Source: Alphaproteobacteria bacterium | GTDB taxonomy: Bacteria; Pseudomonadota; Alphaproteobacteria; CAAHEQ01; UBA3637 | Reading direction: 5' to 3' | Length of the DNA: 38,602 nt | Assembly (NCBI GenBank): GCA_015062385.1 | Contig: SUUT01000015.1 | Span: 1-38,602, forward strand | Shown here: positions 3,618-38,563 of the stretch, piece by piece | How the letters are laid out: each line of letters starts with the position of its first letter | Position numbering within the stretch: the stretch's first letter is position 1 | Notes under the pieces: generated by a model | Told to the model about the DNA's origin: nothing | The model's input: the letters and a program-made list of their open reading frames with translations, nothing else | The model's database searches: none | Position numbers and translations under genes: made by a program

Positions 3618-3773
3618 AAAAAAAGGGAGGTATAAATGCAACACTTTTTTTCACATTTTGGCATTTTTTTTAATTTTGACTAAATAATTCAACTCAAACA
3701 ATAATCTTTCATTTTCTTAAAAATCCGATTTTTGTGATTCGCATAGGGAAAAAAAGGTCCCTTTTTTTATACT
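3618..3773 (+). promoter_or_regulatory. Invertible promoter element 1 (131-bp class, OFF orientation) before the pilin gene at 3811
   Basis: Distal site: seven A then GGGAGG (3625-3630) and TATAAATGCAAC. Proximal site: seven A, GGTCCC (3756-3761), seven T. The two cores are 131 bases apart, as at 33372/33503 and 38415/38546. Next to the gene lies TATACT (3768-3773). In the present orientation the hexamer 17 bases before it is A/G-rich (AGGGAA), not -35-like. Inverting the segment would bring GTTGCAT to that spot. Inferred OFF. Confidence 0.7.
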
Positions 3774-3810: not shown

Positions 3811-5196
3811 ATGCGAATCAAGCTGAATGAACAAGGCCACAGTATGATAGAAATGCTCGGCGTATTAGCGGTTATCGGGGTATTAACGATAGTCGCAGTC
3901 GGAGGATACCGCTATGCATTTAATAAATATCAAGCGAATCAGGTTTACAAAGATATCAAGCTGATACAAATCAACCTTGTGTCACAAACGGATGGTGTTC
4001 CGTATGAGTGGGAAGAATTTGAAGAAGATTTACCAAGTCTCTATACATATTTTATTCGGCGGGATAAAGCTCAAAATGATTTTGTGTTGATAGAAGCAGT
4101 CGAACAAAAAATCTGCGTTCATTTAAACCGATTAGCCCAAGATGCCGGCGAACTCACGCTTTATACAATGGACAATACGCCGATGGACTGTTCAGCAGAC
4201 ACGCAGGAAGTTGTTGTTTCCTTTAACGGAGAAGAACAGCTGATACCGTGTGCCGATAATAATGAATGTCCGAATCAAGAGGGGATATATTGTGATGCAG
4301 ATGAAGAAATTTGTCAGGCATGTGGGTTTGACGAACGGCTGAACGATGACGAAGACGGGTGTATCGATTTATGTGCTGATAGAGCGGATGAAAAGATAAC
4401 ATCGTGCAAGATAGAGGCAGAAGAAATCGGATGGTGTTGTCGGTATGATGAGTTTTGCAGTGAAACAAAAGCCGGTGAATGTATTCCGAGTGATGGATCA
4501 TGTATCTATACATTTTTTGAGGCGGATACAGATTTTGGGTACACTACGGATTGTAGTTATTCTGTTCAAGAGGTAAAAAGTATCGGAGAAAAAACATACG
4601 AAACAGATTGTTCCTATACAGTTAGTTCTACAGGAGAGGTAAAGCATGCTACACAATGTACAGTCCCAAATCAATATTGTTTTTTAAATTGGACGAAATC
4701 GTCATGGAAAAAAGGAGAAACGGTACCAACGGCAAGTGCGGGAACAACGGGCACATTATACGGAAAATGTCAACGATTGATAATGCCTGGGGATCCGAAT
4801 ATAGCGTATCGTGAAGAAGTAAGTGCAAATATAGTCACGGTAACACCCCAAAAAAAGTGTAGCAGTCCGGAAAAATATTGTGCGTTAAATTGGACGAAAT
4901 CGTCGTGGAAAAAGGGAGAACCAATACCGACAGCCAGTGCCGGAGCGACAGGGACACTGTATGGTAAATGTCAAAGATTACCGGTTTTTTATACGCATCC
5001 ATATTTTGAGCAAGTAGTAGATAATAATAGAATATTTAAGTTAGAAAAGAAGTGTCCGCCGAAAATGTACTGCCATTTACAGTGGAAAGACATAAATTGT
5101 ACAGCAGCAGGAGCGGGAATAACGGGAAAAGTCTATGGAGCGTGTGCGTTATGGAATAAAACGAACACAACGTGCCCGAAACCGGCAGAAGAATGA
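3811..5196 (+). CDS. Large Cys-rich type IV pilin-like protein
   Basis: Start chosen at ATG 3811: GAGAGGGG lies just before it and MRIKLNEQG aligns with the paralogue at 33554; an ATG at 3793 would add six residues without support. The 461-residue product opens with a class III (prepilin) signal: short basic leader, Gly9, then HSMIEMLGVLAVIGVL with Glu at mature position 5 and a 20-residue hydrophobic helix. After about 120 residues of alpha/beta-like sequence comes a long Cys-rich tail, first acidic and EGF-like in spacing, then three repeats centred on YC-x-L-x-W ... GTLYGKCQRL (about residues 285-460). The product is probably a minor pilin or pilus-tip adhesin assembled by a type IV pilus or type II-like system encoded elsewhere. 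It is followed 29 bases later by a small exported gene and preceded by an invertible promoter element. Confidence 0.85.
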   Translation: MRIKLNEQGHSMIEMLGVLAVIGVLTIVAVGGYRYAFNKYQANQVYKDIKLIQINLVSQTDGVPYEWEEFEEDLPSLYTYFIRRDKAQNDFVLIEAVEQKICVHLNRLAQDAGELTLYTMDNTPMDCSADTQEVVVSFNGEEQLIPCADNNECPNQEGIYCDADEEICQACGFDERLNDDEDGCIDLCADRADEKITSCKIEAEEIGWCCRYDEFCSETKAGECIPSDGSCIYTFFEADTDFGYTTDCSYSVQEVKSIGEKTYETDCSYTVSSTGEVKHATQCTVPNQYCFLNWTKSSWKKGETVPTASAGTTGTLYGKCQRLIMPGDPNIAYREEVSANIVTVTPQKKCSSPEKYCALNWTKSSWKKGEPIPTASAGATGTLYGKCQRLPVFYTHPYFEQVVDNNRIFKLEKKCPPKMYCHLQWKDINCTAAGAGITGKVYGACALWNKTNTTCPKPAEE

Positions 5197-8155: not shown

Positions 8156-8911
8156 ATGGCACAACAAAATACAGATATAGAAAAAGTTAAAAAATTTGTA
8201 CAGGAAATGCAGGGCGGATGGTATCCGCTTCGATATATCAGCGGTATTTCCCATTGTTTGTTTGATATTAATGCCCAAGATGAAAATGGTAATACTTTTT
8301 GGCATTATAATTTTGAAGTATGTCCGGATAGAGTGTATAATCAAGGTTTGTTAAAAGATTTTTGCCGAGCAACAGATCAAAAAATTGATTTAAGTAAAAA
8401 AAATAAGCAGGGTATTTCTGTTTTAGGTTCGTTAATTGGGAATAAAAATAATCCGTTTGTTTTTGAAGATATCTTACGTTATCCGGAATTTTACAAATCC
8501 ATAGATTATACAGCTCAAAATGAAAACGGGACAAGCATGCTGATGTATCTTGTTCAAGCGGGTTTTTTAACTTCTGAAATATATATGAATTATATTAAAG
8601 AATTATGCGAGCATTCCGAAATATTGAATTTACAAGATAAATCAGGGAATACGGCTTTGCATTATGCTTGTCAATTAGGAACATCTATTCAAGGGGTTCA
8701 AATGCTGATTGAATCGGGGGCAGATATCCGAATCAAAAATAACAACGGGATGCAACCGATTGATATGATTCAAGAGAATAGGGAATTAAAAGATTTATTA
8801 TCTATACATATGAGCAGAGAAACAATCGAATCAAATAATCACCCCACTGTTGTGATAAAATATTCTATTCCAAACAAGATGATGTCCCACTCAAACGGAC
8901 GAGCAGAGTAA
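8156..8911 (+). CDS. Ankyrin-repeat protein, 251 residues
   Basis: Ankyrin signatures appear as DINAQDENGNTFWHYNF (about residue 40), IDYTAQNENGTSMLMYLVQAG (about 120) and LNLQDKSGNTALHYACQLG ... LIESGADIRIKNNNGMQPID (about 160-215). Only the last two units are close to consensus; the first are degenerate. No signal peptide or membrane segment is visible, so the protein is either cytoplasmic or exported by a dedicated system. Ankyrin stacks bind other proteins; in host-associated alphaproteobacteria they are often effectors, but nothing here proves that. The start has GAAAGG upstream and a consensus promoter 54 bases away. It stands alone as a single-gene unit. Confidence 0.8.
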   Translation: MAQQNTDIEKVKKFVQEMQGGWYPLRYISGISHCLFDINAQDENGNTFWHYNFEVCPDRVYNQGLLKDFCRATDQKIDLSKKNKQGISVLGSLIGNKNNPFVFEDILRYPEFYKSIDYTAQNENGTSMLMYLVQAGFLTSEIYMNYIKELCEHSEILNLQDKSGNTALHYACQLGTSIQGVQMLIESGADIRIKNNNGMQPIDMIQENRELKDLLSIHMSRETIESNNHPTVVIKYSIPNKMMSHSNGRAE

Positions 8912-9261: not shown

Positions 9262-9441
9262 AAAAAAAGGTACGTATAATTGCAATCTTTTTTTTTACAT
9301 TTTTAAAACTTTTTGAGAAGTGTTTGATTTTTAATATTTCTTTTTGATTTTTAACAATAATTTTTAAATGTTTTGTTTCTTTTTTATCGTTATCGTTTCC
9401 AGCAAAATGAATAGGGAAAAAAAGGTACCTTTTATTACACT
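9262..9441 (+). promoter_or_regulatory. Invertible promoter element 2 (155-bp class, OFF orientation) before the pilin at 9561
   Basis: Distal site: seven A then GGTACG (9269-9274) and TATAATTGCAA. Proximal site: seven A, GGTACC (9424-9429), TTTTATTACACTTATAG. Core spacing is 155. The candidate -10 is TACACT (9436-9441); 17 bases before it stands AGGGAA, not -35-like, so the locus is read as OFF. Reversing the segment would place TTGCAA exactly 17 bases before TACACT. The interior is the reverse complement of the interior at 19672-19819. A roughly 110-base leader with a small GGCG/CGCC hairpin (9482-9495) follows before the ATG. Confidence 0.75.
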
Positions 9442-9560: not shown

Positions 9561-10106
9561 ATGAAAAAAAATGAATCAGGTCGTTCAATGGTTGAAATGC
9601 TTGGCGTTTTAGCTATTATCGGTGTTTTATCAGTTGGCGGTATTGCCGGCTACACAATGGCAATGAATCGTTATCGGGCAAATGAAGTTGTTGATATGGC
9701 AAACAAATACGCCGTTATTGCATACTCTGCATATATGACAAGCAAAATGATGAACAACGGAACACCAGCTGCTAATGCCATTCCGTCATTTGCTTCAACA
9801 GGTTTGTTTGGTTCGCATTCTTCTGTCAACGGAACAAAAATTGGTAATGCTAAGGTTGATGAAGATTATGTACGTATTACGTTAACATTTAACAATGAAA
9901 AAATCTGTCAGGCAACAGCTACATCATTAGGTGCGGTAATTAGTTCGCCGGCTCCATCAAATTCGCCGGCTCCATCAAATTCGCCGGCTCCATCAACATC
10001 ATCAATTCCAGTACCTATGGCTGACCCAGAACCAGCTCCAAAACCAACAGTTTCACAAGCTAATTGTGGATCTAAAACAATTGAAGCCGTCTTTAAACAA
10101 AGCTAA
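9561..10106 (+). CDS. Type IV pilin-like protein with Pro/Ser repeat (small pilin P1)
   Basis: Start chosen at ATG 9561, behind AAAGGAAAAG; upstream in-frame codons lie in the leader RNA. The 181-residue product has a seven-residue basic leader MKKNESG, then the mature start RSMVEMLGVLAIIGVLSVGG with Glu5, the class III signal cut and N-methylated by prepilin peptidase. The helix continues as IAGYTMAMNRYRANEVVDMA. The middle varies between paralogues; the conserved ICQATATSLG block follows. Unique to this copy is a low-complexity stretch of three SPAPSN units plus a Pro-rich tail before the final Cys and the family ending VFKQS. Such proteins are pilus or pseudopilus subunits. P1 and P2 form a two-gene unit under element 2. 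Confidence 0.88.
   Translation: MKKNESGRSMVEMLGVLAIIGVLSVGGIAGYTMAMNRYRANEVVDMANKYAVIAYSAYMTSKMMNNGTPAANAIPSFASTGLFGSHSSVNGTKIGNAKVDEDYVRITLTFNNEKICQATATSLGAVISSPAPSNSPAPSNSPAPSTSSIPVPMADPEPAPKPTVSQANCGSKTIEAVFKQS
9945..9998 (+). repeat. 18-bp tandem repeat inside pilin P1
   Basis: Three copies of TCGCCGGCTCCATCAAAT (the third diverging at its end) encode SPAPSN units. Unit length keeps the frame, so copy number can change without breaking the gene. Confidence 0.85.
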
Positions 10107-10149: not shown

Positions 10150-10638
10150 ATGAAGAAAAATGAATCAGGACGTTCAATGGTTGAAATGCTTGGCGTTTTA
10201 GCTATTATCGGTGTTTTATCAGTTGGTGGTATTGCCGGTTATACAATGGCAATGAACCGTTATCGTGCAAATGAAGTTGTTGATTATGCGAATAAATATG
10301 CTGTTATTGTTTATTCTGGTTGGATGACAGCAAAAATGATGAATAATGGAACAGTGCCAGATGATTATACAAATCCGACTTTTGCTCAAACAGGTTTGTT
10401 TGGTTCAAAAACAACGGTAAATGGGACAACTATTGCTTTGGAATCCACTGACCCGATTGGGGAAGGAGGGGTTAAAGTTGTTTTGACATTTGGTACAGAT
10501 GCGAAAAAAACATGTCAGGCTACTGCTACATCCTTGGGGATTGCACCAAATTCGGATACTGCTGGGGCTGATGAATGGTCACAAGGTAAATGTGATGATA
10601 CAAATCCAACTATTAATTATTTCTTCAAACAAAGCTAA
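10150..10638 (+). CDS. Type IV pilin-like protein (small pilin P2)
   Basis: A 162-residue paralogue beginning MKKNESG/RSMVEMLGVLAII, with a ribosome site AAAAGGAG 8 bases before the ATG. The first 45 codons are almost identical at DNA level to P1 and P3; here VVDYANKYAVIVYSGWMT replaces VVDMANKYAVIAYSAYMT. The middle is its own, followed by TCQATATSLGIAP and the ending FFKQS. It begins 43 bases after P1 and is probably co-transcribed. Two Cys bracket the C-terminal variable loop, as in the D-region loop of type IV pilins. Confidence 0.88.
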   Translation: MKKNESGRSMVEMLGVLAIIGVLSVGGIAGYTMAMNRYRANEVVDYANKYAVIVYSGWMTAKMMNNGTVPDDYTNPTFAQTGLFGSKTTVNGTTIALESTDPIGEGGVKVVLTFGTDAKKTCQATATSLGIAPNSDTAGADEWSQGKCDDTNPTINYFFKQS

Positions 10639-10654: not shown

Positions 10655-10833
10655 CCACATAAAAAATTATGTGGTTAGACGGCAGTGTTAAATGGTTTTT
10701 TTTTGAGTTCCCCGTTTTTCACTGCCGTTGATTAAAAATTACTTAAAGATTCCAAAGCTCTTTAAGTAAGGCAGAACGGCAGTATTAAACGGTTTTCTTG
10801 AGTTCCCCGCTTTTTACTGCCGTTTGTTTTTTT
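10655..10833 (+). terminator. Multi-hairpin 3' region after pilin P2
   Basis: Four hairpins in a row: CCACATAA/TTATGTGG (10655-10674), ACGGCAGTG/CACTGCCGT (10679-10728), ACTTAAAG/CTTTAAGT (10741-10767) and ACGGCAGTA/TACTGCCGT (10776-10823), the last followed by TTGTTTTTTT, the likely terminator. The same block follows pilin P3. Confidence 0.8.
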
Positions 10834-10946
10834 GTAATGGATACAATTTTTTGCTCTTGATAAAAAGAGGATAACAACTTGCGATGTTAAAATATTTAAA
10901 TCCCCCTATCAAGGCAGGGGGGATTGTTGTTTGTTTATTCCTGTTT

Positions 10947-11061
10947 TTATTTAAGTACATATTCCGGATAAATGGGTATCGGATCATCAATATCAACGTA
11001 TTTCATTTCAAATCCCTCCATTTCCGGCTCAACCATTTGAATGGTTTTTTTGTTTTATCCG
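10947..11061 (-). pseudogene. 3' fragment of the GNAT-Nudix gene carried in the duplication
   Basis: On the minus strand this stretch encodes the last ~35 codons of the gene at 12390-13334 (ending PIYPEYVLK and TAA) with only a few changes, plus a one-base loss near its 5' edge. Homology stops at about 11061. It has no start and is a passenger of the segmental duplication. Confidence 0.88.
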
Positions 11062-11261: not shown

Positions 11262-11441
11262 AAATAAAGGTACGTATAATTGCAATCTTTTTTTTTACAT
11301 TTTTAAAACTTTTTGAGAAGTAATTGATTTTTAATGTTTCTTTTTGATTTTTAACAATAATTTTTAAATGTTTTGTTTCTTTTTTATCGTTATTGGTTCC
11401 GGCAAAATGAATAGGGAAAAAAAGGTACCTTTTATTACACT
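11262..11441 (+). promoter_or_regulatory. Invertible promoter element 3 (155-bp class, OFF orientation) before the pilin at 11561
   Basis: Near-identical to element 2: distal GGTACG at 11269-11274, proximal GGTACC at 11424-11429, core spacing 155, candidate -10 TACACT at 11436-11441 with AGGGAA in the -35 position. Same orientation as element 2, hence inferred OFF. The downstream leader carries a perfect GGCGG-AAAA-CCGCC hairpin (11482-11495). Confidence 0.75.
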
Positions 11442-11560: not shown

Positions 11561-12073
11561 ATGAAAAAAAATGAATCAGGACGTTCAATGGTTGAAATGC
11601 TTGGCGTTTTAGCTATTATCGGTGTTTTATCAGTTGGCGGTATTGCTGGCTACACAATGGCAATGAATCGTTATCGGGCAAATGAAGTTGTTGATATGGC
11701 AAATAAATATGCCGTTATTGCTTATTCTGCATATATGACAGCAAAAATGATGAATAATGGTAGTACAACAGCGGCAGATGCTGCTGTTCCGACATTTGCA
11801 GAGACAGGTTTGTTTGGGCAAAGTTCAAAAGTTAATGGAACAAGTTTTGATGTAAAATCAATTACAGAAGGCGGTGTTACAATGGAATTAACATTCCCTT
11901 CAGATGGAAAGAAGATTTGTCAAGCAACAGCAACTTCGTTAGGTATTAAACCGGATTCTACATCAACAATTAAAGTTCCAGATCCGGATGATCCTACAAA
12001 GGAAATAGACCAAGAAGTTTCCGCCGGTTGTAATTCAGACCAAAAATTAACTTATGTCTTTAAACAAAGTTAA
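11561..12073 (+). CDS. Type IV pilin-like protein (small pilin P3)
   Basis: A 170-residue pilin-like protein: leader MKKNESG, mature RSMVEMLGVLAII with Glu5, then the common stretch to MMNNG, a variable middle (TFAETGLFGQSSKVNG, shared with P4 and P5), ICQATATSLGIKP, a longer charged C-terminal insertion with DPDDPTKEIDQE, one more Cys and the ending VFKQS. The 5' part matches P1 and the 3' flank matches P2, so P3 may be the product of recombination between tandem pilins, or the ancestor of both. AAAGGAAAAG precedes the ATG. It is alone behind element 3. Confidence 0.88.
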   Translation: MKKNESGRSMVEMLGVLAIIGVLSVGGIAGYTMAMNRYRANEVVDMANKYAVIAYSAYMTAKMMNNGSTTAADAAVPTFAETGLFGQSSKVNGTSFDVKSITEGGVTMELTFPSDGKKICQATATSLGIKPDSTSTIKVPDPDDPTKEIDQEVSAGCNSDQKLTYVFKQS

Positions 12074-12089: not shown

Positions 12090-12280
12090 CCACATAAAAA
12101 TACCAATTTTTATGTGGTTAGACGGCAGTGTTAAATGGTTTTTTTTTGAGTTCCCCGTTTTTCACTGCCGTTGATTAAAAATTACTTGAAGATTCCAAAG
12201 CTCTTTAAGTAAGGCAGAATGGCAGTATTAAACGGTTTTCTTGAGTTCCCCGCTTTTTACTGCCGTTTGTTTTTTTTGTA
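12090..12280 (+). terminator. Multi-hairpin 3' region after pilin P3
   Basis: Same order of hairpins as after P2: CCACATAAAAA/TTTTTATGTGG (12090-12117, with a longer stem than in the other copy), ACGGCAGTG/CACTGCCGT (12122-12171), an ACTT-AAG hairpin, and GGCAGTA/TACTGCC (about 12220-12265) before a T8 run. Confidence 0.8.
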
Positions 12281-12342
12281 ATGGATACAATTTTTTGCTC
12301 TTGATAAAAAGAGGATAACAACTTGCGATGTTAAAATATTTA

Positions 12343-12368
12343 AATCCCCCTATCAAGGCAGGGGGATT
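12343..12368 (-). terminator. Terminator hairpin of the GNAT-Nudix gene
   Basis: AATCCCCC (12343-12350) pairs with GGGGGATT (12361-12368), 22 bases beyond the stop on the minus strand, followed by an AT-rich tail. A copy at 10899-10923 belongs to the duplicated remnant. Confidence 0.6.
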
Positions 12369-12389
12369 GTTATTTGTTTGTTCCTGTTT

Positions 12390-13334
12390 TTATTTAAGTA
12401 CATATTCCGGATAAATGGGTATCGGATTATCAATATCAACGTATTTCATTTCAAATCCCTCCATTTCCGGCTCAATCATTTGAATGGCATCTTTTGCTTT
12501 ATCCGTTTCTGATAAAGTGCATTCAAACGGGAAAACAATTTCGTGTCCTTTTCCACCCTCAAATGTGAAAATATTTTCGGCAATCGGTAAGGCTTTTGTA
12601 ATTTGAATATCTAACCCTGTTTCTTCTTTTAATTCTCGTTTAACGGCGTTTTCGGCTGTTTCGCCAAAGTGAATACCGCCCCCCGGCAAGCGATAAAAAT
12701 ATTGATTTTTAACAGAATCATATCCTTTAACAGCAAGAACGGTGTTCCCTTTGCGGATAACGGCAATGGCCAAAGGCCTGATTTCGCCTTTTTCTCGTTT
12801 ATCTGTTTTAATCCAAACATGATGTTCTATATGTCCGTCAACAACTGTGTCCGGTCGGGTATAACCACCCATTTCCCGCATAACGGATAACATAACCGAA
12901 TGAGAGGTTGGATTGTTTTCATCACAAGAAAGCATAACGTTTTCAAGATGTAGATTATTTTTGCAATAATCTAATACCAGTTTTAACCCTTGCTTTGCAT
13001 AGCCTCTTTTTCGGCAAGATGGCAAAATCTGATACGCAATATGACCGCCGGATTTTTTTAATCCCTCATTTAAATAATGGCGAACGTGATATAATCCGAC
13101 AAAACATTTGCCGTCAAATAATAATAAAACGGTTGCCGGAACTCTGTCTTGCGGAATAGGTCCGTTTTTGCAAGTATTTAAATAATCTAAATATCCGTCA
13201 AAGTTTTTTTCGGAATATTCAATCAGTTTTTGTGATGCATGAATATCAAACGGTGTCGGATTGGCTTTTAATTCCATAATTCCATTTAATAATTCCGGCA
13301 AAATTTCAGCTGTCGGTTCCATAATTTTAAGCAT
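12390..13334 (-). CDS. GNAT acetyltransferase-Nudix hydrolase fusion
   Basis: Start chosen at ATG 13334 because AAGGAGGAT lies 5 bases before it; a longer frame to 13391 would run through the promoter. The 314-residue protein has two enzyme domains. Residues about 20-175 are a GNAT acetyltransferase, with the acetyl-CoA loop in CRKRGYAKQGLKLVLDYC and the downstream NVMLSCDENNPTSHSVM. Residues about 185-310 are a Nudix hydrolase with a perfect box: G-x5-E-x7-REL-KEE-TG-L beginning at GGGIHFGETAE. GNAT enzymes transfer acetyl groups to amines; Nudix enzymes split nucleoside diphosphates linked to another group. The joint substrate cannot be told. The 3' end was duplicated to 10947-11061. Confidence 0.88.
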   Translation of the reverse strand: MLKIMEPTAEILPELLNGIMELKANPTPFDIHASQKLIEYSEKNFDGYLDYLNTCKNGPIPQDRVPATVLLLFDGKCFVGLYHVRHYLNEGLKKSGGHIAYQILPSCRKRGYAKQGLKLVLDYCKNNLHLENVMLSCDENNPTSHSVMLSVMREMGGYTRPDTVVDGHIEHHVWIKTDKREKGEIRPLAIAVIRKGNTVLAVKGYDSVKNQYFYRLPGGGIHFGETAENAVKRELKEETGLDIQITKALPIAENIFTFEGGKGHEIVFPFECTLSETDKAKDAIQMIEPEMEGFEMKYVDIDNPIPIYPEYVLK

Positions 13335-19658: not shown

Positions 19659-19837
19659 AAAAAAAGGGACCTTTTTTTCCCTATTCGTTTTTCCCAAGTC
19701 AATAAAGGAAAAAAAAGATAAAACAAGCAAAAATTATCTTTTAAAATCAAAAAGAAATATTAAAAATCAAACATTTCTCAAAAAGTTTCAAAAAAATAAA
19801 AAAAAGAGTTGCAAAAAAAGGTCCCTTTTATTACACT
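19659..19837 (+). promoter_or_regulatory. Invertible promoter element 4 (154-bp class, ON orientation) before the pilins at 19952 and 20414
   Basis: Distal site: seven A, GGGACC (19666-19671), seven T, CCCTATTCG. Proximal site: TTGCAAAAAAAGGTCCC (core 19820-19825) then TTTTATTACACTTATAG. Outer flanks match elements 2 and 3 directly (GTATCG-GCAAAAAAAGG on the left; TTTTATTACACTTATAG on the right), but the interior matches them only as the reverse complement (for instance AAATATTAAAAATCAAAC here against GTTTGATTTTTAATATTT there). The inversion puts TTGCAA (19809-19814) exactly 17 bases before TACACT (19832-19837), a plausible promoter. A GGCGG/CCGCC leader hairpin lies at 19877-19890. Confidence 0.78.
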
Positions 19838-19951: not shown

Positions 19952-20389
19952 ATGAAAAAGAATGAATCAGGACGTTCAATGGTTGAAATGCTTGGCGTTT
20001 TAGCTATTATCGGTGTTTTATCAGTCGGCGGTATTGCAGGTTACACAATGGCAATGAACCGTTATCGTGCAAATGAAGTTGTTGATATGGCTAATAAATA
20101 TGCTGTTATCGCATATTCTGCATTTATGACAAATAAAATGATGAATAATGGAGAAGAAGATACATCTGTTGTTCCAGCATTTAAAGATACAGGTTTGTTT
20201 GGACAAAGTTCAAAAGTAAACGGAACAAGTTTTTCTGTAACAAGTATTGATGAAGATGGTGTTACTATTCAATTAACATTCCCAAGTGACGGTAAAAAAA
20301 TCTGTCAGGCAACAGCAACTTCATTAGGTATTTCAGGTTCAAGTTGTACTGGTGGTGGTACATTAAGTTTTGAATTTAAACAAAGCTAA
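19952..20389 (+). CDS. Type IV pilin-like protein (small pilin P4)
   Basis: A 145-residue pilin-like protein: leader MKKNESG, mature RSMVEMLGVLAIIGVL with Glu5, common helix, variable middle (EEDTSVVPAFKDTGLFGQ), ICQATATSLGISGSSC and the ending FEFKQS. Two Cys bracket the C-terminal loop. AGAAAGGAACTCAAA precedes the ATG. It is first of two pilins behind element 4, the only element in the window in the orientation that builds a promoter, so this pair is the best candidate for the expressed pilin set in the sequenced cells. Confidence 0.9.
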   Translation: MKKNESGRSMVEMLGVLAIIGVLSVGGIAGYTMAMNRYRANEVVDMANKYAVIAYSAFMTNKMMNNGEEDTSVVPAFKDTGLFGQSSKVNGTSFSVTSIDEDGVTIQLTFPSDGKKICQATATSLGISGSSCTGGGTLSFEFKQS

Positions 20390-20413: not shown

Positions 20414-20848
20414 ATGAAAAAAAATGAATCAGGACGTTCAATGGTTGAAATGCTTGGCGTTTTAGCTATTATCGGTGTTTTATCAGTTGGCGGTATTGCC
20501 GGTTATACAATGGCAATGAACCGTTATCGTGCAAATGAAGTTGTTGATATGGCAAACAAATACGCTGTTATTGCATATTCTTCTTATATGACAAGTAAAA
20601 TGATGAATAATGGGACTCCCCAAACAGGTGCTATTCCAGCATTTAAAGACACAGGTTTGTTTGGACAAAGTTCAAAAGTAAACGGAACAAGTTTTGGTAC
20701 TGCAACAATTAGTGATAATGAGAGTGCTGTGACAATTGAATTAACATTTCCAACAGAAAAAATCTGTCAGGCTGCTGCAACTTCTTTGGGTATCTCCGGA
20801 AGCGGTTGTGCAAACAAAACATTATCACCTGTCTTCAAACAAAGCTAA
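20414..20848 (+). CDS. Type IV pilin-like protein (small pilin P5)
   Basis: A 144-residue paralogue with the same leader, Glu5 helix and C-terminal Cys loop (ICQAAATSLGISGSGC, ending VFKQS). It shares the block AFKDTGLFGQSSKVNGTSF with P4, so the two are close relatives with differences concentrated between the block and the Cys loop. Its ribosome-site stretch AAGAAAGGAACTCAAA is identical to that of P4, and it starts 24 bases after the P4 stop, so they are one operon. Confidence 0.9.
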   Translation: MKKNESGRSMVEMLGVLAIIGVLSVGGIAGYTMAMNRYRANEVVDMANKYAVIAYSSYMTSKMMNNGTPQTGAIPAFKDTGLFGQSSKVNGTSFGTATISDNESAVTIELTFPTEKICQAAATSLGISGSGCANKTLSPVFKQS

Positions 20849-22518: not shown

Positions 22519-22547
22519 TTGACTTTTGAAAAAGATTGACAGATAAT
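22519..22547 (+). promoter_or_regulatory. Promoter for the ankyrin gene at 22590
   Basis: TTGACT (22519-22524), 17-base spacer, GATAAT (22542-22547), 43 bases before the ATG. Confidence 0.6.
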
Positions 22548-22589
22548 ATCAAATATTATTTTAGAGTTGTTCATTATAAGGAGATATCA

Positions 22590-24296
22590 ATGAAATTATT
22601 GGACGGAATCAGTGTTTTGGGATTGAAATTAATTGCACAACCTAATCGTACAAAATATTTAACGGAGTATATTGCCGAAGGTAATTTGAAAGCGATTGAA
22701 TTATTGTTGGAAGCCGGAGCCAATCCAAACAGTGCTGTTAATGCCGATGGGGAGACAGCGATGTTAGTTGCATTAACAAAAGGGGATGCATACCTTTTGC
22801 GTTTATTGATGAAGTATGGTGGAAAATTACCGGATGTTAATGATGAAATGTTGGAAACATCATGGTTAGGTGTCGGATTAAATCAGAACAATTTAGGTAG
22901 ATTTGTTGAATGGGTCCAAGTGTTATCGGATTTCGGATTTTTTAAACGTCAATCTCCCAAAGTTGTTTTAAGAATGATGCAATATTGTACGGAACGAATT
23001 TTGCGTGGTGGTAATCAAGCGGTTTTATATGCCGATCAAAATGTTCAGAAAGCCTTTAAATGGATGATTCAAGATATATCCTTTCAGAATACGGATATAA
23101 AAACGGAACAAATAAACCGTTATTTTGTGGATTTTGTTTTAAAAAATCATATGAGCTATTTAATTGATGAGATGGCTCAACGAGGTTTGGATGTGAATAT
23201 AAAAGATTCTTCCGGTATGCCTTTAATCATGGGTTTGTTGCAACCGGAATTTGATTCGTACGATGAATCACTTCGAAATAAAACAGTTAGAAAGCTTTTG
23301 AAACATCCGAAAATTGATTTAAATACACAAGATAAATATGGAAACACGTTGTTACATTTCTTAGCAGCACAAAATGAAAGCGGATTCTTAAAAATGGCAT
23401 TGGAACAAGGTGCTAATCCAAATATTCAAAATTCAGAAGGATGTGTTCCGTTGGTTTCGGCGGCTCGTTGGGATTCCAAGGCTTGTGTGGAACAGTTGTT
23501 AAATAAAAATCCGGATTCAAAACAAGTTAATGAAGCCTTAATGCAGGCTGTTCATGGATCACATTTTGAGGTTGTTAAACTATTGGTTGAAAAGGGTAAT
23601 GCAGATGTCAATTACGGAGATGTGACACGGTTAGGGTTCGTATTATCAAATGATAATGAACAAAATAAAGGAAATTATTGTGAAACCCCTTTAATGAATG
23701 CACATACTTCACAAATAGCTGAATATTTAATTCAAAAGGGAGCAAATGTGAATGCCCGGGATTTGCAAGGATATACGCCATTAATGCATATCATTGATGA
23801 TTGTGAAGGAATGCGTATGTCTGATGTGGTTGATATTGTTGATTTACTTATTAAAAACGGAGCGGACATCAATGGCTCTGCCGGCGGGAAAACACCCTTA
23901 ATTGCCATATCCCAAAAACGTCAAGACCACATCGAAAATAAACTGATTTTTAATATGTTGGTTCGGCATCCCGATATTGATTTGAATGCACAGGATGAGG
24001 AAGGAAAAACAGCATTAATCCATTGTACTCAGTTGAATGATATTGATGGTGTTCATGCCTTATGCAAAGCCGGTGCCCGTATGGATATTCGGGAGAATAC
24101 GGGTAAAACAGCCATTCAGTTGGCGGCAGAAAATACACACGCTTCAGAGGTGTATGATGCATTATATCGCTACATGAAAGCATATTGTTTGTCTAAACAA
24201 GTGGAAGAAATTACCCGAAAAACTGAACCTGTATGTGTTGTAAACGGAGCAGAAAAAGGAGTTTCTCCTCAAAAACAATCCCATACAATGGTGTAA
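22590..24296 (+). CDS. Ankyrin-repeat protein, 568 residues
   Basis: Start chosen at ATG 22590, with AAGGAG 7 bases before; an in-frame upstream start would overlap the promoter. Ankyrin units occur in two groups. The first is at about residues 25-80 (LKAIELLLEAGANPNSAVNA). The second is a series from about 205 to 530, including LNTQDKYGNTLLHFLAAQNE, ALEQGANPNIQNSEGCVPLV, LIQKGANVNARDLQGYTPLM, LIKNGADINGSAGGKTPLIA and DLNAQDEEGKTALIHCTQLN. A less regular helical stretch separates them. No signal peptide or membrane segment is visible. It is a protein-binding scaffold; the partner is unknown, and an effector or host-interaction role is possible but unproven. Confidence 0.88.
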   Translation: MKLLDGISVLGLKLIAQPNRTKYLTEYIAEGNLKAIELLLEAGANPNSAVNADGETAMLVALTKGDAYLLRLLMKYGGKLPDVNDEMLETSWLGVGLNQNNLGRFVEWVQVLSDFGFFKRQSPKVVLRMMQYCTERILRGGNQAVLYADQNVQKAFKWMIQDISFQNTDIKTEQINRYFVDFVLKNHMSYLIDEMAQRGLDVNIKDSSGMPLIMGLLQPEFDSYDESLRNKTVRKLLKHPKIDLNTQDKYGNTLLHFLAAQNESGFLKMALEQGANPNIQNSEGCVPLVSAARWDSKACVEQLLNKNPDSKQVNEALMQAVHGSHFEVVKLLVEKGNADVNYGDVTRLGFVLSNDNEQNKGNYCETPLMNAHTSQIAEYLIQKGANVNARDLQGYTPLMHIIDDCEGMRMSDVVDIVDLLIKNGADINGSAGGKTPLIAISQKRQDHIENKLIFNMLVRHPDIDLNAQDEEGKTALIHCTQLNDIDGVHALCKAGARMDIRENTGKTAIQLAAENTHASEVYDALYRYMKAYCLSKQVEEITRKTEPVCVVNGAEKGVSPQKQSHTMV

Positions 24297-24429: not shown

Positions 24430-25724
24430 CGAGAATCTGAAACGAGTTCAGATTAACGGTGGGGGTAAAGGTTACTGTCATTTTTGAGATACTTTTAACT
24501 TCCACTACCATCAATCAACTTTAAAGAAAAAAGACTTATATATTTTATAAGTCTTTTTTATACTTATCGCTACCCCGAGTTTGATTCGGGGCCTTGTGAC
24601 GAAAGGGTAGGGTTTTTGTACCAGTTCTTTCCGAGAATCTGAAACGAGTTCAGATTGACGGTAGGGGTAAGGGTTACTGTCATTTTTGAGATACTTTTAA
24701 CTTCCACTACCATCAATCAACTTTAAAGAAAAAAGACTTATATATTTTATAAGTCTTTTTTATACTTATCGCTACCCCGAGTTTGATTCGGGGCCTTGTG
24801 ACGAAAGGGTAGGGTTTTTGTACCAGTTCTTTCCGAGAATCTGAAACGAGTTCAGATTGACGGTAGGTGTAAGGGTTTACTGTCATTTTGGACATCTTTA
24901 ACTTCCGCTATCATTAATCAACTTTAAAGAAAAAAGACTTATTTATTTTATAAATCCTTTTTATACTTATCGTCATCCCGAGCTTGATGTGGGGTCTCGT
25001 GACAAACGGGTAGGGTTTTTGTACCGGTTCTTTCCGAGAGTCTGAAACGAATTCAGATTGATGGTGGATGTAAAGGTTTACTGTCATTTTGGACATCTTT
25101 AACTTCCACTATCATCAATCAACTTTAAAGAAAAAAGACTTATTTATTTTATAAATCCTTTTTATACTTATCGTCATCCCGAGCTTGATTCGGGGTCTTG
25201 TGACGAAAGAGTAGGGTTTTTGTACCGGTTCTTTCCGAGAGTCTGAAACGAGTTCAGATTGATGGTGGATGTAAAGGTTTACTGTCATTTTGGACATCTT
25301 TAACTTCCACTATCATCAATCAACTTTAAAGAAAAAAGACTTATTTATTTTATAAATCCTTTTTATACTTATCGTCATCCCGAGCTTGATGCGGGGTCTC
25401 GTGACGAAAGGATAGGGTGTTTGTGCCTGTTCTTTCCGAGAATCTGAAACGAGTTCAGATTGACGGTGGGGGTAAAGGTTTACTGGCATTTTGGACACTT
25501 TTAACTTCCACTACCATCAATTAACTTTAAAGAAAAAAGACTTATATATTTTATAAGTCCTTTTTATACTTATCGTCACCCCGAGCTTGATGCGGGGTCT
25601 CGTGACGAAAGGGTAGGGTGTTTGTGCCTGTTCTTTCTGAGAATCTGAAACGAGTTCAAATTGATGGTGAATACTAAACACATTATCGTCATTTTTGAGA
25701 TGCTTTTAACATTCATTATCACCT
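24430..25724. repeat. Tandem array of six 201-bp palindrome-rich repeats
   Basis: An anchor (ATCAACTTTAAAG) recurs at about 24518, 24720, 24921, 25122, 25323 and 25524, i.e. every 201 (once 202) bases. Each unit holds three inverted repeats: a T-run hairpin (AAAAAAGACTTATA/TATAAGTCTTTTTT in the first two copies), a CGTCA-CCCGAG...CGGGGTC-TGACG palindrome like the dispersed elements of many alphaproteobacteria, and GAATCTGAAACGAGTTCAGATT. Outer copies are near-identical in pairs; middle ones share variants. Recurring 60-codon minus-strand frames exist but have no ribosome site and are by-products. The array fills the whole gap between the ankyrin gene and the minus-strand pilins. Confidence 0.92.
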
Positions 25725-25872
25725 AATGCTCCGACATGTGAAACGGATGAATAACGTTTTGTTTTAAATAAATCAGTGGTGTCTTTTTTTTATAAGTTTA
25801 TCGGTTCAGTTAGGTTGTTTTTTTATGTAAAGTGTGTTTTTTTTAGTTAAATATTGCTGTTTGTCATAAAGA

Positions 25873-25922: not shown

Positions 25923-26360
25923 TTAGCTTTGTTTAAAGTCTGCTGTTAAGGTACCGCCATTTCCTGAACAACCAGAATTGCTGATACCTAAAGAAGTAGC
26001 TGTTGCTTGACAGATTTTTACATTGTCAAATGTCAATGTAATTTGGACATTATCTTCAGTGACTGTTGCAGTGCCGATTTGTGTTCCATTAACTTTTGAA
26101 TTTGAACCAAACAAACCTGTTGAAGCAAATGTTGGAACAGCATTAGCTTGGACGGTCCCATTATTCATCATTTTACTTGTCATATAAGAAGAATATGCGA
26201 TAACGGCATATTTGTTAGCCATATCGACAACTTCATTTGCACGGTAGCGGTTCATAGCCATTGTATAACCGGCAATACCACCGACTGACAAAACACCGAT
26301 AATAGCTAAAACGCCCAACATTTCAACCATTGAACGACCTGATTCTTGAGTTTTTTTCAT
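25923..26360 (-). CDS. Type IV pilin-like protein (small pilin P7)
   Basis: A 145-residue pilin-like protein with leader MKKTQESG, one residue longer than in P1-P5 and with Thr-Gln in place of Asn, then RSMVEMLGVLAII with Glu5. The common helix is followed by VPTFASTGLFGSNSKVNG, ICQATATSLGISNSGC and the ending FKQS. GAAAGGAACTAACT precedes the ATG. Unlike P1-P5 it has no GGTACC-type invertible element upstream; instead TTGTGT-17-TATACT stands about 208 bases before the start, so expression is probably not switchable in the same way. Confidence 0.9.
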   Translation of the reverse strand: MKKTQESGRSMVEMLGVLAIIGVLSVGGIAGYTMAMNRYRANEVVDMANKYAVIAYSSYMTSKMMNNGTVQANAVPTFASTGLFGSNSKVNGTQIGTATVTEDNVQITLTFDNVKICQATATSLGISNSGCSGNGGTLTADFKQS

Positions 26361-26567
26361 AGTTAGTTCCTTTCTAGTTTTCCATATGTAAAACGAGAAA
26401 CGAATCTTTTGCCTTATTTTCGCAGTTTGACCAAAGCTTCAAACTCTTTACGCTGTTTTCCCTTTCCCTGAAAGGTTAAACCATATTTTTTGTTGCGTGC
26501 GAACAACAATAGATTTCGTTCCGATGAAAAGGGTTCTTCCAAAGCTTTTCCCCCTCTCCACTTTTTT

Positions 26568-26596
26568 AGTATAAAAGATTATTTTTTTAAACACAA
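26568..26596 (-). promoter_or_regulatory. Fixed promoter of pilin P7
   Basis: Minus strand: TTGTGT (26596-26591), 17-base spacer, TATACT (26573-26568). Leader of about 200 bases with TTTCAGGGAAAGGG. Confidence 0.5.
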
Positions 26597-26652
26597 GCAT
26601 TTTTTTTTGAAAAAGAATAAAAAAATATTATTTTTGTACGAAAAAAGATTGC

Positions 26653-26687
26653 TCACAAAAAAAAGCCCACCACGGAGGCAGGCTTTT
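26653..26687 (-). terminator. Terminator of pilin P6
   Basis: AAAAGCC/GGCTTTT stem (26661-26687) with a run of eight T on the minus strand. It sits only about 57 bases before the P7 promoter, so the two pilins are separate units. Confidence 0.85.
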
Positions 26688-26710
26688 CTGATAAATATAC
26701 TATCAACAAA

Positions 26711-27148
26711 TTAGCTTTGTTTGAAGACCGGAGTTAAGCTACCGCCACCTGTTGTACATGTGCTGTTGCTGATACCTAAAGAAGTAGCTGTTGCTTGACA
26801 GATTTTTTGATTGTCAAAATTTAATGTCATTGTAACTTTATCTTCATCGACTGACGCATTACCAATTGTTGTTCCATTAACTTTTGAATTTGAACCAAAC
26901 AAACCTGTTGATTTGAATGTCGGAATAACATCATTACTTGCTGTTCCGTTATTCATCATTTTGTGTGTCATCCAAGCAGAATATGCGATAACAGCATATT
27001 TGTTAGCCATATCAACAACTTCGTTCGCACGATAACGGTTCATTGCCATTGTGTAACCGGCAATACCACCGACTGACAAAACACCGATAATAGCTAAAAC
27101 GCCCAACATTTCAACCATTGAACGACCTGATTCTTGAGTTTTTTTCAT
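26711..27148 (-). CDS. Type IV pilin-like protein (small pilin P6)
   Basis: Start chosen at ATG 27148 (MKKTQESG), with GAAAGGAACTAACT before it as in P7; the frame extends 12 codons upstream without support. The 145-residue product differs from P7 mostly in the middle (SAWMTHKMMNNGTASNDVIP, SVDEDKVTMTLNFDNQ) and in the C-terminal Cys loop (ISNSTCTTGGG), ending VFKQS. Helix and signal are unchanged. It is the upstream member of the tandem duplication. Confidence 0.9.
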   Translation of the reverse strand: MKKTQESGRSMVEMLGVLAIIGVLSVGGIAGYTMAMNRYRANEVVDMANKYAVIAYSAWMTHKMMNNGTASNDVIPTFKSTGLFGSNSKVNGTTIGNASVDEDKVTMTLNFDNQKICQATATSLGISNSTCTTGGGSLTPVFKQS

Positions 27149-27355
27149 AGTTAGTTCCTTTCTAGTTTTCCATATGTAAAACAAGAAACGAATCTTTTGT
27201 CTTATTTTCGCAGTTTGACCAAAGCTTCAAACCCTTTACGCTGTTTTCCCTTTCCCTGAAAGGTTAAACCATATTTTTTGTTGCGTGCGAACAACAATAG
27301 ATTTCGTTCCGATGAAAAGGGTTCTTCCAAAGCTTTTCCCCCTCTCCACTTATTC

Positions 27356-33364: not shown

Positions 33365-33520
33365 ACAAAAAGGTACGTATAAATGCAACACTTTTTTTCA
33401 CATTTTGGGATTTTTTTTGATTTTAGATAAATAATTCAACTCAAACAATAATCTTTCATTTTCTTAAAAATCCGATTCTTTCGATTCGAAGCGGGAAAAA
33501 AAGGTACCTTTTTTTATAAT
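33365..33520 (+). promoter_or_regulatory. Invertible promoter element 5 (131-bp class, OFF orientation) before the pilin at 33554
   Basis: Distal site: AAAAAGGTACG (core 33372-33377) then TATAAATGCAACA. Proximal site: seven A, GGTACC (33503-33508), seven T. Core spacing is 131. A perfect TATAAT (33515-33520) lies next to the gene, but 17 bases before it stands CGGGAA. Inverting the segment would place TTGCAT exactly 17 bases from TATAAT. Inferred OFF. The interior matches elements 1 and 6 in the same orientation. Confidence 0.72.
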
Positions 33521-33553: not shown

Positions 33554-35677
33554 ATGTTTAAAATCAAACTGAATGAAACCGGACGAAGTATGGTGGAAAT
33601 GCTAGGGGTATTGGCAATTATCGGTGTATTATCTGTTGCCGGTGTTGCTACTTACCAATATGCGTTAACGGCTTATCAAGCCGGCAAAGTGCAGGATGTT
33701 CTCGGAAAAGCCAAAACATTGGCACAAACAGATTCTCGGGCTTCTCATGCATTGGAAGTCAATCGGTTTATTAAATCAGCACTTTCCGAATATGTCCCTG
33801 ATGACAAAAAGTCCATGGTCAAGTTGGTTAATAGTAATTATCAGGTAACGACATTTAAAGTGGTTTATAAGGTTTGTGAAAAACTCCTTCAAAAGGAAGG
33901 TATATTGAATGATATGGGTATTTCAATTTTAACAAGAACGTGCGGAAATCCAAACAGCAAAACAAATATGGTGTTTTCTTTTAATGCAATTCCGGTTGTT
34001 AATTCAGACAGTCATTTCGGCGGAACCACTGAAACAGAAACGGATAATCCAAATATTGAACCGCAATCCTGCCCCGATAAAATGGTATGGCGACAAAAAG
34101 AAGATGGTACATATGGTTGTGTTTGTCGTCACGAATATGAATTTGGAGATAATTGCGAACGGTGTTATCCGCCCAAAGAATGGTTTGAAGATGAAACAAC
34201 GTGTCGTTGTCCGGATATGACACCTGTATGGCATAATGAAGAATGTGTTGAATGCATCGATGACAGTACGTGTCAAATTCCGAACCTTGTCTGTGATACA
34301 TCAAATAATACCTGCAAATCGTGTCCGGATGAACGTCCATTTTATAATGTGAACAGTACAAATCCAGACAAATGTGAAAAATGTCCGGATGCAACACCGG
34401 TATTTGCCGTTAATACAAATGAATGCATTGCCTGTCCGAGTTCCGCCCCGTATTGGAACGGTAAAGAATGTTCGCCGAATGAATGCGAATCGAATGAAGA
34501 TTGCCATAAAATTTATAAAGATACAAATTATTTCTGCTCAAAAGGGGCAAATATTTGTAGTTCGGAAGCGTTTAAAGGAGCACGTTGTAAAAAAGCACTC
34601 TATCATACATTTACAATTAACGGAGTTAATTTTTACTGGACCAAGGATGCTTTGGGGGACAATTCCAAAGATTGGGAAGCTGCTGTTAATTTTTGTTTGG
34701 CTCTTGGAAAAAAGATGGTTTCTATAACGGAAGATTTAGGCTGTTCAAAAACGGTTGCATATAATAATTTCGAAACATCTTGCAGTGGCGATGAAAATTC
34801 AGTTTATAAACAAATTCGGACAAAAATAGCAGCACTTGGATATACTTCTGCACCGTGGGTTTCTTATTATCCTTGGAGTAATGAAACTACTTATACATGT
34901 GAACGGGGTTGTATATGGATGGACAGAAACAGAATTAATACAAGTCAGAATTTTGATGATCATGGTGGAACACACTACGCATTATGTCGGGATTGGGGTC
35001 CGATGTGTTTTGCCCCCTATACTCGTGAAGGCGATAAATGTGTCTGTCCGACAGGAACATATGATACAGGGACAACCTGTGCAACGTGTACAGCACCGTA
35101 TATCATAAATGCCACACAAACAGGATGTACTTGTCCGACCGGTTCACATGATAATGGCACAACGTGTATTACGTGTCCGGAGGGGTCAACTTGGAATGAT
35201 GAACATAAAGCGTGTGCCGTAACCGTTTCGATTGAAAGTGGAACGAAAGAATATATTACAGATTATGCTTGGTATTCACTGTCAAAAGAGGGATGGCTTG
35301 ATGTGGTTTTTCCCGAAAATATTACAACCGGAAAATGGCAACTTGTTGGTACAAATGAAAAAGCCAATCTGTCTTGCGGTGTTCAGATTATTGGTTGTTC
35401 CCTTTGGGATAGTCATTTTTCATTAACAAGTAATACATTTGATTTAACAAATAATACCGTATCAGGTATTGAACCGGTTGAAAAATCACAGTTGGAATGC
35501 GGAGTGGCTCCTGATGGTATGAAACATGGGCAACATTTAGATGTAGAAATGAGAAAGCCAAATGCATATACTATACAGGTGCTAATGCATGTTAATAGTC
35601 ATATTAATTATGCCAGTCCATTCTATGCGACACCGACTGTATCATCTGCAACCGCACAAGCTATTTTGGTGCAGTAA
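33554..35677 (+). CDS. Giant pilin-like protein with EGF-like and C-type-lectin-like regions
   Basis: A 707-residue protein behind GGGAGGAG. Domains in order: class III prepilin signal MFKIKLNETG/RSMVEMLGVLAII with Glu5 and hydrophobic helix (1-40); a pilin-like alpha/beta part to about 165; a Cys-rich stretch with EGF-like spacing (about 173-340; repeated CPD-x-x-P, CP-x-x-x-P); a C-type-lectin-like region (about 350-490; WEAAVNFCLALGKKMVSITE, later HGGTHYALCRDWGPMCF); more Cys-rich repeats (CPTGTYDTGTTC, CPTGSHDNGTTC); and a C-terminal beta-rich domain (about 560-707). Known analogues are minor pilins with adhesive domains at the pilus tip. This architecture suggests a surface adhesin, probably binding glycans or host protein. 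The lectin call is motif-based. An invertible element lies directly upstream. Confidence 0.85.
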   Translation: MFKIKLNETGRSMVEMLGVLAIIGVLSVAGVATYQYALTAYQAGKVQDVLGKAKTLAQTDSRASHALEVNRFIKSALSEYVPDDKKSMVKLVNSNYQVTTFKVVYKVCEKLLQKEGILNDMGISILTRTCGNPNSKTNMVFSFNAIPVVNSDSHFGGTTETETDNPNIEPQSCPDKMVWRQKEDGTYGCVCRHEYEFGDNCERCYPPKEWFEDETTCRCPDMTPVWHNEECVECIDDSTCQIPNLVCDTSNNTCKSCPDERPFYNVNSTNPDKCEKCPDATPVFAVNTNECIACPSSAPYWNGKECSPNECESNEDCHKIYKDTNYFCSKGANICSSEAFKGARCKKALYHTFTINGVNFYWTKDALGDNSKDWEAAVNFCLALGKKMVSITEDLGCSKTVAYNNFETSCSGDENSVYKQIRTKIAALGYTSAPWVSYYPWSNETTYTCERGCIWMDRNRINTSQNFDDHGGTHYALCRDWGPMCFAPYTREGDKCVCPTGTYDTGTTCATCTAPYIINATQTGCTCPTGSHDNGTTCITCPEGSTWNDEHKACAVTVSIESGTKEYITDYAWYSLSKEGWLDVVFPENITTGKWQLVGTNEKANLSCGVQIIGCSLWDSHFSLTSNTFDLTNNTVSGIEPVEKSQLECGVAPDGMKHGQHLDVEMRKPNAYTIQVLMHVNSHINYASPFYATPTVSSATAQAILVQ

Positions 35678-38407: not shown

Positions 38408-38563
38408 AAAAAAAGGTACGTATAAATGCAACAATTTTTTACACATTTTAGCAAATTTTTTGATTTTGGATAACTTATTCAATTAAAACAATAATCATTC
38501 ATTTTTGTAAAAATCTGATTTTGCCGAAACGCATAGGGAAAAAAAGGTACCTTTTTTTATAAT
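38408..38563 (+). promoter_or_regulatory. Invertible promoter element 6 (131-bp class, OFF orientation) before the gene at 38598
   Basis: Distal site: seven A, GGTACG (38415-38420), TATAAATGCAACA. Proximal site: seven A, GGTACC (38546-38551), seven T. Core spacing is 131. TATAAT at 38558-38563 with AGGGAA in the -35 position, as in elements 1 and 5. Inferred OFF. Confidence 0.72.

Follow-up and report, generated by a model that had tools for sequence, protein, structure and literature searches.

The segment at positions 19659 to 19837 of the window (the whole 38,602-nucleotide stretch of DNA, from a gut-type alphaproteobacterium, that was analyzed) is, with high confidence, one of approximately 100 site-specific inversion switches (invertons) that lie mainly in front of pilin-type genes. 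The segment is inverted relative to its paralogues at 9262 and 11262. The ON and OFF assignments and the enzyme are inferred, as is phase variation of the cell surface, the presumed purpose of these switches.

Alignment of the three loci detected a flipped interior between fixed flanks. Positions 19672 to 19819 were identical to the reverse complement of 9275-9423 at 119 of 149 positions (z = 13.2; 300 dinucleotide shuffles) and to that of 11275-11423 at 118 of 149 (z = 13.1; dinucleotide shuffles). Direct alignments yielded only 72/151 and 73/152, respectively, with a z score of −2.5 in each case, worse than for shuffled sequence. The gene-side (right) flank matched directly at 105 of 132 positions and scored 171, whereas shuffled sequences averaged 43 and did not exceed 65.5. 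A first-pass annotation of this DNA had proposed this arrangement at the same coordinates, which were correct, and had also described both outer flanks as shared. This holds for the gene side; the left (far-side) flank was weaker than implied, with ∼15 bases in common (GTATCG..GCAAAAAAAGG) and a 60-base score only ∼1.6 standard deviations over shuffles. The site AAAAAAAGGNACC was present 17 times in the window at ≤1 mismatch, compared to 1.0 expected. The three loci of the annotation were confirmed but formed a small part of the set, as three further elements in the window (at about 3621-3765, 33368-33512, and 38411-38555) and ∼98 other paired elements elsewhere in the genome had been missed.

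Table 1. Invertons, promoter elements, and pilin-type genes in the window, and elements of the source genome (G000) in the ON orientation; the ON and OFF states are inferred
Feature	Position	Strand	Details
Inverton, OFF orientation	3621..3765	+	Far arm altered (GGGAG, not GGGAC)
Large Cys-rich pilin-type gene behind 3621 OFF element	3811..5196	+	461 aa, 28 Cys
Inverton, OFF orientation	9262..9436	+	Core GGTAC
W end of 9262 inverton	9264-9286		Far side
S site of 9262 inverton	9414-9433		Gene side
−10 box by 9262 inverton	9436..9441	+	TACACT
Pilin-type gene behind 9262 OFF element	9561..10106	+	181 aa
Further pilin-type gene	10150-10638		After 9561..10106
Inverton, OFF orientation	11262..11436	+	Core GGTAC
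Pilin-type gene behind 11262 OFF element	11561..12073	+	170 aa
Inverton, ON orientation	19659..19832	+	Core GGGAC in both arms
S site of ON inverton	19662-19681		Far side
W end of ON inverton	19808-19829		Gene side
−35 box of ON inverton	19809..19814	+	TTGCAA; within flipping segment, 17 bp from −10
−10 box of ON inverton	19832..19837	+	TACACT; fixed gene-side flank
Pilin-type gene behind ON element	19952..20389	+	145 aa; N terminus G^RSMVEMLG; Pfam N_methyl, below cutoff
Second pilin-type gene	20414..20848	+	Directly downstream of 19952..20389
Two pilin-type genes without inverton	25923..27184	-	Fixed promoters; comparison for switched genes
Inverton, OFF orientation	33368..33512	+	Core GGTAC; −10 TATAAT in gene flank
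Large Cys-rich pilin-type gene behind 33368 OFF element	33554..35677	+	707 aa, 44 Cys
Inverton adjoining contig end	38411..38555	+	OFF-like layout (S end toward truncated gene side)
Six ON elements of G000	C4:7458, C6:4881, C9:85925, C11:19808, C13:34528, C26:97303		C11:19808 = 19659-19837

The second gene behind the ON element is probably cotranscribed with the first, as part of an inferred operon. At the OFF element at 9262, the −35 slot located 17 bp upstream of the −10 box (9413-9418) reads AGGGAA and is without a TTG. By sequence, both pilin-type genes that lack an inverton are preceded by TTGTGT-N17-TATACT, and a promoter scan reported this for the gene at 26360 only. Several other features of the window were recorded. 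Near-identical duplicates (95 to 100%) at 10667-11051 and 12110-12494, located 3′ of pilin genes, suggest a recent duplication of a pilin cassette. A repeat of ∼201 bases is present in six tandem copies at 24483-25788, most of which contain a short minus-strand open frame. The contig start (1-580) consists of a 42-base tandem repeat encoding a Gly/Ala/Ser-rich repeat protein, and three ankyrin-repeat-like proteins, recognized by eye, are encoded between the pilin loci (8156-8911, 22536-24296, and 35766-37469).

A genome-wide census was performed by searching G000 for the site at each end of the element and by reading ∼100 stretches around these sites. Matches to the site of the first end numbered 102 at ≤3 mismatches (reversed control pattern, 0) and those to the site of the other end 110 (control, 0), giving 104 paired elements, 6 of them within the window. 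Each element carries two sites with the core AAAAGG-NA-C, inverted relative to each other. One end, termed S, is symmetric (AAAAGGNACC-TTTTTTTCCC), forming a 20-base palindrome that is conserved in about 100 copies, and the other end, termed W, is asymmetric (TTGCAT/A-TTATAC-GTNCC). Spacing between the arms is nearly always 123 bases, with a small subfamily of 146 or 147 bases that includes the 9262, 11262, and 19659 elements. The two arms carried an identical core base N in 103 of 104 elements (73 G/G, 29 T/T, and 1 A/A), which would follow from a requirement for a common 2-bp overlap between the sites; the single exception was a poorly matching element. In having a short segment upstream of a gene with inverted repeats at its two ends, these elements show the defining form of invertons.

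An element was scored as OFF when its S end adjoined the gene and as ON when the W end did so. Orientation could be assigned for the 92 elements with a pilin-type gene on exactly one side, and 86 of these were OFF and 6 were ON. The element at 38411-38555 was omitted from this count, with only 47 bases of flank remaining. Among the 12 nonoriented elements, several were located at contig ends and others preceded different genes, the clients being two ankyrin-repeat proteins, a putative nucleotide kinase, a secreted protein, and one more pilin-type gene that was overlooked by the pilin motif search. The elements before ankyrin-repeat, secreted, and kinase-like genes rather than pilins were C40:57331, C42:60893, C36:29295, and C3:34660 of G000. 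Contig ends were found within 300 bp of an element in 18 of 76 cases, compared to 1.4 expected, an enrichment that was not counted as proof because repeats give an equal signal.

Both orientations were detected between otherwise matching flanks. The cleanest case was a pair of elements in G000, C26:97303 (ON) and C33:57925 (OFF), which had 297 of 300 gene-flank bases in common and interiors that agreed at 144 of 145 positions only as the reverse complement (direct, 80/155); these loci are judged from their alignments to be recent duplicates. Similarly, C6:4881 (ON) and C6:7579 (OFF) matched at 140 of 150 far-flank positions and, only when flipped, at 139 of 145 interior positions. A sister species, represented by a metagenome-assembled genome (MAG) from water buffalo rectum (RGIG7750; G008), had 36 paired elements, of which 25 were OFF, 3 were ON, and 8 could be assigned to neither state; the core base was equal in both arms in 35 of the 36. 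The alternative orientation, which the annotation had proposed to look for in related genomes, was found there in a partial run of that check. The gene flanks of L131 of G008 (OFF) and C9:85925 of G000 (ON) are 99% identical, and the far flanks of L138 of G008 (ON) and C12:81036 of G000 (OFF) are 98% identical. As each pair matched well on one flank only, these are regarded as close loci and not as proven full orthologues. A different pattern was seen for C36:26093 and C36:35141 of G000, in which the interior was 100% and the far flank 94% identical and the gene sides differed, suggesting, as far as an alignment can, cassette exchange at the S site; many other pairs found in a search for mosaic elements merely shared conserved gene starts, and only this clear pair was used. 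Overall, these comparisons strongly support a putative genome-wide inversion system. The evidence is comparative, coming from paralogues and one sister species, and is not the "direct evidence" that had been claimed initially, there being no reads that show both states of one locus.

Genes for Mpi-like small serine recombinases were present in both G000 and G008. Scores against the Mpi family model (NCBIfam NF009949; cutoff, 272 bits) were 271.3 for the C26 protein of G000 and 258.8 and 273.4 for the C170 and C193 proteins of G008, and, as these lie near the cutoff, the proteins were named Mpi-like and were not filed as Mpi. Relatives of the G008 Mpi-like protein with solved structures were DNA invertases and resolvases. 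The C170 gene (200 aa; L162) has a counterpart in G000 at C42:49092-49667, with an acetyltransferase gene and a NUDIX gene as common neighbors; the last 120 residues of the two products are nearly identical. The G008 copy is intact, whereas the G000 copy (L096/L176) lacks ∼46 codons at the N-terminal end and, with them, the catalytic serine region. Another Mpi-like gene, at C26:78023, is intact in G000, and its closest relatives (72 to 75%) occur in genomes without the site. An Mpi-like small serine invertase is likely the best candidate for the enzyme, its action on the sites being inferred. The truncation of the shared gene means that switching in G000 is perhaps frozen or is carried out by another enzyme.

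It is accordingly possible, if doubtful, that the elements are remnants of an ancestral inversion system whose cognate invertase is broken in G000, leaving each element stuck in its present orientation. In addition to the truncated gene, which is intact in G008, the state of the arms favors such an explanation: an altered far arm was found in four of the six ON elements (C4:7458, C6:4881, C9:85925, and C13:34528) but in only 8 of 86 OFF elements (Fisher's test, P = 0.002; P = 0.02 with G008 added). The numbers are small, and ON elements with an altered far arm are possibly locked ON. Against a system frozen as a whole, what survives of the Mpi-like gene product is all but identical to its G008 counterpart, which makes the loss look recent, and a second Mpi-like gene, at C26:78023, is intact. 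Furthermore, nearly all elements have kept their arms and core base, and a near-identical duplicate pair (C26:97303 and C33:57925) differs by a flip.

The other enzyme considered was a tyrosine recombinase of FimB/FimE size, which would flip the elements in place of an Mpi-like serine recombinase. Two intact genes of this type, encoding 193 and 198 aa and weakly resembling tyrosine-type DNA invertases, were found in G000. The 193-aa gene is, however, 92 to 96% conserved in G001 and G002, both of which lack the site, and is represented only by fragments in G008, which carries it; the 198-aa gene had no counterpart of >31% in the 23 relatives searched. Neither gene meets the expectation that a recombinase of the FimB/FimE type be present in the site-carrying genomes. 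The 2-bp NA core in a palindrome also points away from such an enzyme, as it is established that small serine recombinases use a 2-bp core inside a palindrome. Inversion by a tyrosine recombinase is on these grounds unlikely.

Analysis of promoter motifs was limited to elements with usable flanks. In all scored elements the −35 box (TTGCAT/A) was located inside the flipping segment and the −10 box (TACACT, TATAAT, or TATACT) outside it. The −35 box occurs at the W end only, and the matching −10 box in the gene-side flank. When OFF elements were flipped in silico, the number with a TTG −35 and a TA...T −10 at 16 to 18 bp increased from 0/85 to 85/85, all with a spacing of 17 bp; flipping of ON elements reduced the number with a promoter from 6/6 to 0/6. 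The far side of OFF elements offered a −10 partner in only 3 of 85 cases. The presence of TTGCA follows by construction from the element search pattern, but that of the −10 box and the spacing does not. As a −35 box, TTGCAT is modest, with three of six consensus bases, and TTGCAA has four. With the −35 box inside and the −10 box outside, it is well supported, in the absence of any observed transcript, that the flip would move the −35 box rather than a whole promoter and that inversion would join or separate promoter halves. With the S end (TTTTTTTCCC) by the gene, there would be no −35 box, and an off state is predicted for the gene; inversion of the segment by the recombinase would place TTGCAT/A exactly 17 bp from the −10 box, with a predicted change to the on state. 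The inversion proposed in the first-pass annotation is supported; its description of the promoter as flipping needs correction, since no scored element contained a whole promoter within the invertible segment. A whole promoter inside is the usual inverton layout and not a requirement, and the split layout marks a variant. With this layout, the OFF state would be clean and would need neither a terminator nor a wrong-facing promoter.

The same promoter data bear on whether the conserved segment is merely a binding site for a regulator, with an orientation that has no effect on transcription. The S end, as a 20-base palindrome kept in about 100 copies, has the appearance of such a site, but the finding that an in silico flip creates a 17-bp-spaced promoter in 85/85 OFF elements and destroys it in 6/6 ON elements, with only 3/85 −10 partners in the far flank, makes this explanation very improbable. 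A far-side motif, [AG]CAGATA, is weakly conserved across the genome, and ON elements keep it too. A miniature transposon-like repeat inserted both ways before pilin genes, with no in-place inversion, could explain the many copies, the terminal inverted repeats, and the near-fixed length but is hardly tenable, as it calls for independent insertions at unrelated places, and the elements instead have conserved flanks and a near-constant place before a pilin-type gene (92/92 orientable elements), gene-side and far-side motifs that do not change sides in ON elements, and duplicates in which one flank is shared nearly base for base and the differences are confined to the region inside the sites.

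Returning to inversion switches that join promoter halves, a more detailed scheme can be put forward only tentatively. One invertase would keep ∼100 pilin-type genes mostly silent, with a few expressed by joining of the promoter halves; the core base (GA, TA, or AA) would define compatibility classes that limit recombination between elements; and exchange at the shared site would reshuffle gene cassettes between switches.

The genes behind assigned elements start with a type IV pilin-like leader (GRSMVEMLGVLAIIGVLS), identified by eye, with a Glu at +5. Pfam N_methyl matches to these genes had E values of 0.0025 to 0.008, below the cutoff. Complete client genes of G000 and G008 encode 145 to 912 aa, and most have many cysteines. 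As judged from the predicted products, the majority of clients are surface proteins of the type IV pilin type, and these are mostly large and Cys rich. ATPases of the T2SS/T4P family are present in G000, and an export route is therefore plausible.

The closest parallel is Mpi of Bacteroides fragilis, which inverts 13 regions (PMC4747536). In both cases one global small serine invertase would act in trans on many invertible promoters of surface genes, and the candidate enzymes described here score from slightly under to slightly over the NCBIfam Mpi cutoff. The present system differs in belonging to an alphaproteobacterium, in its site, in comprising 104 paired elements of one site family, in having pilin-type clients rather than capsule operons, and in that only the −35 box flips and the −10 box stays. 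The fimS element of Escherichia coli (FimB/FimE) is similar in that inversion of a short segment before a pilin gene decides expression. However, the promoter of fimS lies inside the element, the enzymes that invert it are tyrosine recombinases, and its clients are chaperone-usher fimbriae. Piv inversion in Moraxella exchanges pilin coding segments, as is also stated in the title of the cited 1988 paper, whereas here a promoter half would flip at ∼100 loci. Inversion and type IV pilin expression are linked in both, here by prediction; Piv inversion controls type IV pilin expression in Moraxella (cited in PMC5903667).

Surveyed gut invertons are likewise short promoter segments bounded by inverted repeats near surface genes (PMC11892184). 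The largest repeat-homology group in that survey comprised 72 invertons pooled over 125 strains, compared with 104 paired elements of one family in a single genome here; the highest total per genome was 181, in Mitsuokella, and was not stated to be one family (PMC11892184). An earlier read-based survey detected invertons in 0 of 4 alphaproteobacterial samples (PMC5903667), and a literature search, in which most subscription journals were not covered, did not find a matching alphaproteobacterial, pilin-driving, or rumen inverton system. The elements described here are best regarded as a variant of known inverton systems that is unusually large and has a split promoter. If this is true, they represent a large trans-acting phase-variation system in Alphaproteobacteria, tied to a very large pilin-type repertoire. 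With ∼100 switches of one design, metagenome reads would give the ON fraction for each, and orientation bias, coswitching, and selection become directly testable.

In a scan of 58 relatives, the site was found only in G000 and G008. All matches in the GTDB 220 genome set, with own-genome records excluded, were from RGIG7750 except for four stray single matches outside the genus (Paenibacillus, a Firmicutes, a Proteobacteria, and an Elusimicrobia MAG). The site was not found in a scan of viral contigs, and there was no phage link. Related elements with a CGTAC core and a 140-base interior were detected upstream of pilin-type genes in sister species G004, G006, and G007. Loci L222 of G004 and L231 of G006 matched at 123 of 138 gene-flank positions and at 116 of 140 interior positions only when flipped, which suggests that a wider set of putative switch families is present in the genus. 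Loci of this CGTAC-core inverton-like family in G004 and G006 were L214, L216, L222, and L231; L214 is flanked by two divergent pilin genes, each of which is faced by a −35/−10 pair.
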